NCBI GenBank assembly: GCA_035573895.1
Contig: DATLZR010000052.1
Location: forward strand, 1-36,108
Length of the DNA: 36,108 nucleotides
Direction: 5' to 3'
Origin: Blastocatellia bacterium
GTDB taxonomy: Bacteria > Acidobacteriota > Blastocatellia > HR10
Position numbers and translations under genes: made by a program. Positions 7,876 to 35,850 of the stretch are shown one piece after another; positions within the stretch are counted from its first letter, which is position 1, and every line of letters begins with the position of its first letter. The notes beneath the pieces were generated by a model, which saw only the letters and a list, made by a program, of their open reading frames with translations, searched no databases and was not told the origin of the DNA.

Positions 7876-9609
7876 ATGGCCATAACCAATGCAGATGTCG
7901 CTCGCCTCTTTCGTGAGATCGCCTTCCTGCTCGATATGGAGGGCGTGGCCTTCAAGCCGCGCGCCTACGAAAAGGCGGCTCATGCGATTGAAGCGATGAC
8001 CGAGCCGCTCACCGATGTCTACCGACGGGGAGGTCTGGCGGCTCTCGAAGCGATTCCCGGCGTCGGGCGGAGCCTGGCCGAAAAGATCGCCGAATATCTT
8101 CAGTCGGGCCGGATGACCTACTACGAGGAACTCAAAGCGAAGTACCCGATTGATCTCCCCTCGCTCATGGGCATCGAGGGCGTGGGACCGAAAATGATTC
8201 GCACCCTCTACGAAGAACTCGGAGTGAAAACGCTCGACGATCTGGAACAGGCGGCCCGTCAGGGCCGCATTCGCCATCTCCCTCGCTTCGGCGAGAAGAT
8301 GGAGCAGAAGATTCTCAAAGGGATTGAATTTCGCCGTCGCCACGGCACGCGATTTTTGCTCGGCGAGGTGCTGCCGTTGGTGCAAGAGCTGTGCCAGCGG
8401 CTGGCGGCACGGGACGACGTCGAGATGATCGAAATCGCCGGTTCCATCCGCCGACGCAAAGAGACCGTGGGAGATGCTGACCTGCTGGTTGTCTCTCGCC
8501 GCCCCGGCCCGGTCATGGACTTTTTCGTCGCTCAACCTGAAGTCCTGCACGTCCAGGCCAAGGGCGAGACCAAAACCAGCGTCAAATTGAAAAACGGCAT
8601 GGATGTGGATCTGCGAGTGGTCGAGCGAGAGAGCTTTGGTGCCGCCCTCCAGTACTTCACCGGCAGCAAGGATCACAACATCGAACTGCGCCGCATCGCC
8701 GAGAAGAAAGGCTGGAAGCTCAACGAGTATGGATTGTTCAAAGGCCGCAGGCGCATCGCCGGACGAACCGAAGAAGAAATTTATGACGCCCTCGGCCTCT
8801 CCTACATCCCCCCGGAACTGAGAGAAAATCAGGGGGAGATCGAAGCCGCGCGCGAGGGGCGGCTGCCCCGGCTCATCCCCTACGGGTCACTGCGCGGCGA
8901 CCTTCAGGTTCAAACCAACTGGACCGATGGAGCCAATACGATCGAAGAAATGGCGCTCGAAGCCAAGCGCCTCGGCCTTGAATATATCGCCATCACCGAC
9001 CATACCCGGAGCCTGGCCATGACCGGAGGCTCGGACGAGAAGAAACTCCTCCGCCAGATGCGGGAGATTGATCGGCTCAACGAGAAACTCGACGGAATTC
9101 GCCTGCTCAAGGGAGCCGAAGTCAACATCCAGCGCGATGGGACGCTCGACATTCGCGATGATGTTCTGGCGCAGCTAGATGTCGTGGGGGTGGCCGTCCA
9201 CTCCCACTTCAACCTCTCGCGGCAGGAGATGACCGAGCGGATCATTCGAGCAATGCGGCACCCCTACGCCGACATCCTGTTTCACCCCACCGGGCGGGTG
9301 CTTCACAAGCGCGAGCCTTACGAGGTGGATATTGATGAGATCATCCGGGTGGCGAAAGAAACGGGAACGATCCTGGAAATTGATGCCTATCCCGAACGGC
9401 TCGACCTCAAAGACGAGCACATCCGGCGAGCCGTCCAAGCCGGTGTCCCGCTGGTCATAGACTCGGACGCGCATCATCTCAGTCACTTTCGCGTCCTCAG
9501 TTACGGGATTGCTCAAGCGCGTCGTGGCTGGGCACGATCGGAAGATATTCTCAACACGCTTCCCTGCGATGAATTCCTCGCCCGATTGAAGCGGCGCCGT
9601 CTCCGGTGA
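7876..9609 (+). CDS. polX: DNA polymerase/3'-5' exonuclease PolX with altered PHP motif
   Basis: Family X repair polymerase. The 577-residue product has an N-terminal HhH/lyase-like domain (residues ~1-150, with [15 protein letters not shown] and [12 protein letters not shown]). The nucleotidyltransferase core includes GS at 189-190 and catalytic Asp200/Asp202 in GDADLLV, with the third Asp in MDVDLRV. A C-terminal PHP domain runs from ~335. In the PHP domain the first motif reads DLQVQT (Gln344, Gln346) where the family usually has an HxH pair, while TDH, VHSHFN, HPTGR and DSDAHH are kept. ATG 7876 fits family starts; an AAGGAG lies unusually close (2 nt). The open frame extends 16 codons upstream to 7828. 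Polymerase function is likely intact; nuclease function is uncertain. Confidence 0.93.
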
Positions 9610-9691: not shown

Positions 9692-12491
9692 TTAGCCGTA
9701 GAGCGCCCGATGGACGGCCTTCGCTAGCGTTTTCACATCGTAGGGCTTGGTGACGACGCCCACCACCCCATAGCCGAAGAGCTGCGTGCCGATCTCTTCT
9801 GAACCATATCCGCTAACGAGGACGATCTTGACCCCGGGATTGATCTCGTGGAGACGGCGGCTGACCTCGCGCCCGTTCATATCCGGCATCAGGAAATCGA
9901 GCAGGACCAGGTCAACACCGGGCCAGCGGGCAGTATAAATGCGGAGCGCCTCCATCCCTCCTTCGGCGGGAAGCACCCGATAGCCCAACGATTCCAGGAT
10001 GTTCTGTCCCAGCTCTCTCACCATCGGCTCGTCATCCACGAGGAGGATCGTTCCCGTTCCCCTCGGCACCGTTTCGTCGCGGTCCGCTGCAGCGGGCACC
10101 TTCAGTATCCCTACGACGGGAATGTAGATGAAAAAGGTCGTTCCCCGATCCACTTCACTCTCGACATCAATCCAGCCGCCGTGAGCTTTGATGATGCCGT
10201 AGGCCATTGACAATCCCAGACCGGTTCCGGTCCCGATCTCCTTGGTAGTGAAAAAGGGATCGAAGATATGGGGACGGATGGAGGGCGAGATGCCGAAGCC
10301 CGTATCGCTGATGGTCACGCGGGCGAACATCTCGCGGGGAGCAGTCTCTCCGGGACGCGGCACCGAGGTGTACTCACAGGCAATCCGCAGCCGACCGCCG
10401 TGCGGCATGGCATCACGGGCATTCATGAAGATGCTCAAAAGCGCCTGTTGAATCTGCGCCGGATCGGCCGTGATGAGAAGCGTCTCTTCCGGCAGTTCCG
10501 TTTCCACCCGAATATTTTCCGGCAGCGCCCGTCCGAGCAACGTCGCCATAGTCGAGAGAAGCTGTGTGAGGTTGCACGGCTCCTTGTGGTCTGTTCTGGG
10601 GCGGCTGAAGAGCAGCAGTTGACCGACGAGATCGCGCGCGCGCGCCCAAAACGAGGATGCGCTCCAGATAGTCATTGAGGGCCGGGAGGTCAGAGCCGAA
10701 GCGAACCTGCGCCACTTCGGCAAATCCCAGGATGCCGGTGAGAATATTGTTGAACTCGTGAGCGACGCCTCCGGCCAGCGTCTCAATGGCCTGGAGCTTC
10801 TCGGCCAGAAAGAGTTGCTCTTGCAGCTTGCGTTGAGCCTGTTCGGCCCGCTGACGCTCGATCTCCGCGCCCAGGCGCTGAGCGATGATTTCCAGCAGGC
10901 GCATTTCCACCTCGCTGAAATTCTTGGGTCGGGAATCAAAACCGTTGACAATCCCGATGACCTTCCCATCGCTCGCGTAGATCGGCGCTCCGATGTAGGA
11001 CTCGATCCGTAGGGTTCGCAACTCGGGATCGTTGGGAAAGAGCTGCCATGTACATTCCGGATAGGCGCAGACCCGAGGCTCCTCGATGACGGTCTCGCAG
11101 GGCGTCCCCGCCAGCTCATAACGCCGACCGTGCTCGATCAGGCCGTTCTGATAGAACGTCAGGGCGCGCACCTCCCGCGTCCGGGCGTCGAGTTCGCCGA
11201 CGACGACGTAGGAGACCCCCAATAAATCGGCCAGCGTCTTCGCCGCCTGGTCAAAGAGGCTCTGTCCATGGTAGCGGGTGGCCACGTCATAAATCCGGGC
11301 GATGCGCCGCTCCGCCTCATATCGCTCGCTGACATCGCGGGCAATCGTGTGCATCAGAGGGCGACCGCGAATGATAACCCTTCGATTGCTGAACTCCACC
11401 GATACCTTCCGCCCGTCCTTGCGCCGGAGAAAGGCTTCCGTGGTGATGTCCCGACCGCTCATGATCGCACGGAAGGTGCTGCGAAAGGCCAGCAGGTCTT
11501 CCTCCTCGTGGAGATCGGGGATACTCATGCGGAGCAATTCCTCGCGGCTGTAGCCCGTCAACTCGCAGGCCGCCTGATTGACGTCAATGAATCGCGCATG
11601 TGCATCCACCAGGAAAATGGCGTCGCGCGAGCCTTCAAAGACGGCTCTGAACCACTCCTCGCCTTCCTCAAGAGCATCCCTCAAGCGCCGCTGCTCGGTG
11701 ATGTCTCGCTTGATGGCCAGAAAGCCGATGGGCTGTCCCGCTCTATCAGTGAGCAGTGTGAGCGTCACATCGAGGACGAGTTCGCGCCCGTCCCGGTGGT
11801 ATTGAATGATCTCGCCCCGCCATTGGCCCTTCTCACGAAGGATTCGTTGCTGCTCGGCCCACGCCTGCTCGCGGGTCTGTCCTTCGAGCTTCGTCCTAAT
11901 GACCTCGTTCACGCCCTTGCCGATGACTTCGTCGGCGCGCCAGCCAAACAACCGCTCGGCCGCTTGATTCCAGGCGGTAATGCGATAGTCCAGATCCACC
12001 GCAATCACTGCCTCGCCAATCTGATTGAGGAGTTGCGCCTGATAAGCCAACCGCTCTTCAGCCTCCTTTTTCTCGGTGATGTCAATGAGCGTTCCCTCAT
12101 AGTGAAGAACGCGTCCCTCTGCATCCCGCACAACCCGCGTCAGACCACGAACCCAGACGATCCTCCCATCCCGCCGACGCAACCGGCCCTCCGACTCCAA
12201 AACGCCCGCCTGCTCGAGTGTCCGTTGCCAGCGCGACCGATCTTCCGGATCGCAGTGAAGATCGAAGGCCGAGATTTTGAGAATCTCCTCCGGAGTGTCA
12301 TAGCCCAGCAAACGTGCCAGCGTTGGATTGGCATAGAGGATTTTTCCCTCCGGCGTGCTTCGATAAACTCCGATGAGCGCATCGGTAAAACCATCGGTGA
12401 ACTCAGGAGCCCGATGAGCTGACTGAACAGCCATAAAGGCGATCTTCCCCTCCTTCCGCGGTGAATCGCTTCCGACCATCTCGCCCCCCAC
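9692..12491 (-). CDS. PAS-PAS-PAS-GAF hybrid histidine kinase with receiver domain, interrupted by one frameshift
   Basis: Cytoplasmic-type sensor kinase with no transmembrane segment seen. The first frame (12491 to ~10634) holds PAS1 (residues ~30-140), PAS2 (~150-270), PAS3 (~280-395), a GAF domain (~405-555) and the HisKA H-box VAHEFNN with His578. The reading then slips frame in a (CG)6 tract at 10633-10644. The second frame (to 9692) carries the HATPase (N box NARDAMP, G boxes GFGIS and GTGLGLSM) and a C-terminal receiver domain with DDE, phospho-Asp in LLDFLMPD and Lys in TKPYD. Adding one CG restores a 933-residue protein reading [11 protein letters not shown] across the joint. ATG 12434 (MAVQ) is an alternative start. 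It may be truly broken, phase-variable, or an assembly error. Convergent with polX. Confidence 0.88.
10633..10644. repeat. (CG)6 dinucleotide tract at the frameshift in the sensor kinase
   Basis: Six uninterrupted CG units, flanked by AT on one side and CCC on the other. The two halves of the kinase join in frame if the tract holds seven units (or loses one base). Dinucleotide tracts are prone to slippage in replication and in some sequencing chemistries. Confidence 0.9.
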
Positions 12492-35295: not shown

Positions 35296-35850
35296 CTAGG
35301 GAGGCGGCGGGGCCCGAAACCACATCAGTTTGGTAATGGTCCAACAAGGGTCGGTGATTCCGACGGCCATGGCGAGCGTTTGGTATAACCGCTTATGACT
35401 GACCACCAGACCGGGGGCGAAGGCTCCGATGCTCAGTACAGAAGTTGTAGACCGTTCCAACTAGATACAGACCCCAGTGTAGGGTCTCGGTCAGCCGGGC
35501 CAGGGTGCGGCTGCGACGGCAGAGACAGCTCAGCCATTGGTAATGCGCCGCCGGAGCCGCTCGATGAAAGCCACGTTGATGCGATGCTGCCCCCGCCTTG
35601 CTACCGGTCGATCACCGCCTGAATGTGTTCGGCGGCGCCTTGGATGAGGCGCCGTACCACTCCCACGACCGCCCTTGGGCGTACTGTTTGACAGTCTCGG
35701 CCATACCCATGTTGTTCCAGGGTCGCCACGAGGCCGCCCTAACTGGCCGTTGTTGATTGCTTGCCGAAAGACCTAGCAGACAGCGGTGATATGGGCCCGC
35801 CAGCCAGAGGATTACCTGTGGACCCTTTCTCGTCCAACATCTCATCTCTC
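35296..35850 (-). pseudogene. Degenerate IS transposase (multiple frameshifts and stops)
   Basis: Piecing minus-strand frames together gives transposase-like segments in order: FRQAINNGQLGRPR, then PWNNMGMAETVKQYAQGR, VVGVVRRLIQGAAEHIQAV, INVAFIERL, TLARLTETLHWGLYLVGTVY with NFCTEHRSLR, and finally TLAMAVGITDPCWTI ending at a stop at 35296-35298. The order and spacing match the C-terminal half of a known IS transposase type with IERL and LVGTVYNFC motifs, recalled from family knowledge. At least four frame changes and internal stops show decay. The N-terminal half is not recognisable. Confidence 0.7.

Follow-up and report, generated by a model that had tools for sequence, protein, structure and literature searches.

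The window analysed here, by which we mean the whole stretch of 36,108 nucleotides, carries on its minus strand (12491-9692) a hybrid sensor kinase gene whose reading frame changes at a CG tract. The question raised by this locus is what the break represents. An earlier note, made from the letters of the stretch, had offered three readings: phase variation, a recent loss and a sequencing error. In the following, these readings are weighed together with an older pseudogene and with recoding.

Domains and reading frames of the kinase gene

The gene starts with a GTG at 12491, with alternative ATG codons further in, and its domains are encoded in the order PAS-PAS-PAS-GAF-HisKA-HATPase-receiver. 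The upstream frame encodes 692 aa between 12491 and its first stop at 10413. Pfam matches to three PAS domains, a GAF domain and the N-terminal two thirds of HisKA lie in its part from 10634 to 12491, in agreement with the multi-PAS kinase that had been proposed, and the last 72 or so residues (10413-10633) are an out-of-frame run-on. The downstream frame (9692-10633), with 313 codons and no internal stop, encodes the end of HisKA helix 2, HATPase_c and the receiver domain, the Pfam matches to HATPase_c and Response_reg falling within 9692-11119. HisKA, HATPase_c and Response_reg do not share one open frame, HisKA being split from the other two. The HisKA match comprises residues 571-614 and model positions 4-45 of 66, with the phospho-acceptor His at residue 578 (codon at 10760); its score of 23.7 bits is under the curated cut-off of 26.9, as expected because the domain is cut. 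The short form foreseen in the earlier note, with PAS, GAF and HisKA kept and the ATPase and receiver lost, is accordingly right except for HisKA, which is severed at position 45 of the model. By eye, the motifs HEFNN, NARDAMP, DTGFGIS and GTGLGLS and the receiver Asp and Lys, which we take to be catalytic, are conserved on the two sides of the break. The neighbouring gene at 7876-9609, presumably polX-like judging from its sequence, is convergent with the kinase gene.

Location of the frame switch

The frame switch was located with a codon-usage Viterbi scan that was trained on the long ORFs of the assembly and used no homology input. The sample consisted of the window and 22 other stretches, a non-random set made up of contigs C1-C10, C55 and C100 and contigs with kinase matches; it amounted to 330,568 bases with 228 coding segments longer than 300 bases. 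Switches were listed when they were on the same strand and had more than 150 coding bases on either side. Fifteen were obtained. The one in the kinase gene lies at 10635 and has a run-on of 222 bases to the upstream stop, while the remaining 14 have run-ons of at most 54 bases and resemble ordinary overlaps or short frameshifts. The break on the CG tract is the sole clear mid-gene frame break in the scanned bases; since the scan can overlook frameshifts whose run-on is no longer than 54 bases, the frameshift rate that it gives is a lower bound. Seven of the switches with short run-ons were inspected: L109, L120 and L122 have a start codon of the downstream frame no more than 40 bases before the upstream stop, and for L104, L115, L117 and L121 the ORFs picked by the script were unhelpful. 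In the assembly, the frameshift in the kinase gene is real, closely placed and recent in appearance.

The tract itself is a run of 13 alternating bases at 10633-10645, with (CG)6 at 10633-10644 in plus-strand coordinates. It is the single (CG)6 of the window, against 0.07 expected, and at least one (CG)6 was present in 6 of 100 dinucleotide shuffles of the window; in itself the tract is therefore only mildly unusual. The 3.9 Mb assembly has two (CG)6 sites, of which that in the window is the longer (13 versus 12 alternating bases). The second is on contig C55, in frame within an ORF of 974 aa, and homologs of this ORF in the sister-genus genomes G002 and G003 align across the tract, from query residue 6. 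The C55 tract (L092, 6618-6629) follows a possible internal ATG closely, within the first codons of a sequence that reads MLRARAAALLLVALL and looks signal-peptide-like by eye. The abundance of CG runs differs markedly within the family: the sister-genus genomes G001-G005 have 18 to 56 (CG)6 matches apiece, overlapping registers counted, and the window's genome has two.

Comparison with homologs across the break

The family search covered six genomes of two genera, the genus of the window being represented by its own genome alone. Seven homologs were compared at the tract, namely five from the sister genus (L087-L091) and two paralogs from the same genome, on contigs C118 and C176. The five sister-genus homologs are single open frames of 1321-1490 codons from stop to stop, longer than the window gene, and the paralogs on C118 (1171) and C176 (1256), which the ends of their contigs truncate, are open through the break point; thus all seven keep the frame open where the window gene breaks. 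Well-conserved kinase sequence flanks the break on both sides, as had been claimed, and the HisKA match extends to model position 65 in L088 and 64 in C176. A wider contig scan for distant homologs gave 51 loci with 22-56% identity in the best segment, which were left out of the tract comparison. Among 21 plasmid records, the matches were partial and none covers 80% of the query.

The homologs give the size of the break. From the helix-2 Tyr codon (10670) to the Asp codon (10633) there are 37 bases in the window gene and 39 in each of the seven homologs, and between the phospho-acceptor His and this Asp, which follows the tract, the counts are 127 and 126 bases, respectively. The simplest account of these distances would be one extra loop codon before helix 2 together with a shortfall of two bases. 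A one-base gain would fit the overall length (127 versus 126), but it is less likely than a two-base loss because the upstream frame follows helix 2 of the homologs as far as the tract, with best BLOSUM scores of 11 to 26, and the other frame of the same DNA does not (-2 to 4). The shortfall is in the tract or in the few bases adjoining it, a finer assignment being impossible. The split of a hybrid kinase at (CG)6 described in the earlier note is thereby borne out, both by coding potential and by the homologs, and so is its restored reading, since GARARDLV is present in all five sister-genus homologs (CERARDLI in C118, STRARDLV in C176). The note had counted seven CG units for a restored frame; the number of units does not by itself tell the frame, because L088 has (CG)6, preceded by the Gly codon GGG, and stays in frame.

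The tract codons are GCA CGC GCG CGC in L087, GCG CGC GCG CGC in L088 and GCG CGA GCG CGC in L089-L091. A CGA interrupts the run in three of the five family homologs, a GCA shortens it in one, and the paralogs on C118 and C176 have no CG run at this position. A comparison of the tract in relatives had been called for as a check; it shows that the relatives have not preserved the tract as a repeat. A chimeric assembly of two paralogs joined at the tract was considered as well and is unlikely, C118 and C176 having no CG run there.

The contigs C118 and C176 end inside the HATPase domains of these close paralogs (C118, 1-4138; C176, end at 35719), and kinase matches also extend to the beginning of C118 and almost to the end of C54 (29174), as if similar 3' parts of kinase genes had broken the assembly at these ends.

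The sister-genus kinases are the nearest homologs of the window kinase, orthology not being established. Positional orthology, with the kinases of the relatives adjoining polX, was rejected: in tblastn searches of L087-L091 with six neighbours of the window gene, none matched at 1e-10, and weak matches only (best 0.019) were obtained at E values up to 10. In G001-G004 polX lies elsewhere, away from the family kinases, and G005 (73% complete) gave no polX match. Neither part of the kinase was matched at 1e-8 in the stretches around polX of G001-G004, that of G004 being only 8 kb. The absence of the kinase from these polX stretches in four sister-genus genomes makes it look accessory.

Age and constraint of the two parts

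Stops and additional indels would be the expected marks of long neutral decay, and none are seen. Divergence by codon position was calculated against the five family homologs for 214-215 upstream and 309 downstream codons, and was about 0.34/0.27/0.58 at positions 1, 2 and 3 upstream and about 0.35/0.27/0.59 downstream. With this similar constraint in both parts, and 313 downstream codons free of a further stop, the break looks young; it appears to be recent, reversible or an artefact. A fixed, older pseudogene is very unlikely. The accessory look of the kinase would suit such a gene, and so would the downstream part being more diverged than in the paralogs; the uninterrupted downstream codons and the clustering of differences at third codon positions, as upstream, argue against it. 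The earlier note had linked a fixed pseudogene to a tract of stably six units in all relatives with decay downstream, and we found the relatives in frame and no pattern of decay.

In its downstream part, the window gene diverges more than any other member of the set (0.52-0.56 amino acid identity) and forms the longest branch in the tree of this part. The identity of C118 and C176 to L088 and L090 in the same part is 0.65-0.69 over 161-162 shared codons. This may reflect a relaxation of constraint or else gene conversion between the other copies.

The constraint that persists downstream of the tract would also be expected under recoding, in which a two-base slip of the ribosome or of RNA polymerase at the CG repeat would yield some full-length kinase; the period-two repeat would let GCG and CGC codons re-pair identically two bases back. 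We consider recoding extremely improbable. From the tract onwards, the fold of the RNA is less stable than that of its shuffles (z = +1.63; 194 of 200 shuffles were as stable or more so), so that folding gives no sign of a stimulatory structure, and the homologs, already in frame, have no need of recoding. To our knowledge, slippage by two bases has not been described for a CG repeat.

Sequencing error, phase variation or loss

The reading that ranks second is that the gene is intact in the cells and the consensus lost two bases in the GC-rich repeat through a sequencing or assembly error, which we regard as possible but not likely. In its favour, the assembly is fragmented (184 contigs), contig ends cut two close kinase paralogs, pointing to kinase genes that are hard to assemble here, and the kinase gene otherwise looks constrained. 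The scan speaks against it: with no second mid-gene switch with a long run-on in the sampled bases, the assembly does not look error-ridden. Furthermore, the other (CG)6 of the assembly is in frame, with homologs of its ORF aligning across it, and the CG tracts sampled in the sister genome G004 were assembled without loss of frame.

The G004 sample (from a genome 87% complete) comprised the first 20 separate CG tracts listed, of 12-15 bases, fetched with their flanks; all 20 lie within one continuous coding frame by coding potential. This result also bears on phase variation, that is, on a tract which slips reversibly at a useful rate and turns the kinase on and off, as with the homopolymer of bvgS. 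It speaks against frequent switching only, because a phase-variable tract that is mostly on would look identical in a consensus. Phase variation is nevertheless improbable, as the repeat is not conserved among the homologs, and a single consensus allele cannot reveal variation. Two points speak for it: six dinucleotides just reach the cut-off of PhasomeIt (PMC6321876), and switching of a sensor kinase by a short tract is described for bvgS (PMC1891110). Slightly less probable again is the more particular proposal that the tract acts as a reversible switch of low rate, through which some cells of the population would make only the sensor fragment; it would be a dinucleotide counterpart of the bvgS switch in an unrelated lineage. 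Thus, of the three readings first offered, recent loss and error fit the data, and phase variation is not supported.

We favour, with moderate confidence, a recent, one-off loss of two bases by slippage in an accessory hybrid histidine kinase paralog with multiple sensors, which is the most economical account. Polymerase slippage would probably have dropped one CG unit from the tract, which is the longest CG run in the assembly, or else two adjoining bases were lost, and the cells would then carry the break. Translation would give the 692-residue product with PAS and GAF sensors, a cut dimerisation and phosphotransfer domain, and neither ATPase nor receiver, and such a product should be unable to autophosphorylate. 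If real, the loss would be another example of a signalling gene lost through slippage in a short GC repeat.

Comparison with known systems

The core order GAF-HisKA-HATPase_c-Response_reg of the window kinase is that of hybrid kinases with PF00512, PF02518 and PF00072, as in the intact L088, and C176 shares it as far as the contig end within HATPase_c. Unlike such kinases, the window gene splits into two frames inside HisKA. The sensor parts differ as well, with three PAS and one GAF in the window kinase and an extra receiver, four GAF and one PAS in L088.

The nearest precedent is BvgS, likewise a hybrid kinase. In Bordetella pertussis, slippage in a homopolymer truncates this sensor kinase, and both alleles and the switching between them were observed (PMC1891110). 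The window kinase is likewise truncated by a change in length of a short tract inside the coding sequence. It differs in that the tract is a dinucleotide repeat rather than a homopolymer, that there is one consensus allele rather than two, and that the tract is not conserved in homologs. No phase-variable histidine kinase with a CG dinucleotide tract was found among the titles and abstract openings listed by literature searches, which does not prove that none has been published. A variable tract would add another lineage to those with kinase phase variation.

The tract resembles the SSR contingency loci of the PhasomeIt survey in being a six-unit dinucleotide run inside an ORF, at the cut-off of the survey; its authors caution that the mutation rate of tracts at these limits may be too low for phase variation, with mutability possibly below 1e-5 (PMC6321876). 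It differs from such loci in that the 20 CG tracts sampled in G004 all keep their frame. In this family, then, a short CG tract would seem as a rule to be a stable run of codons, which is a reason for caution in calling contingency loci by sequence alone.
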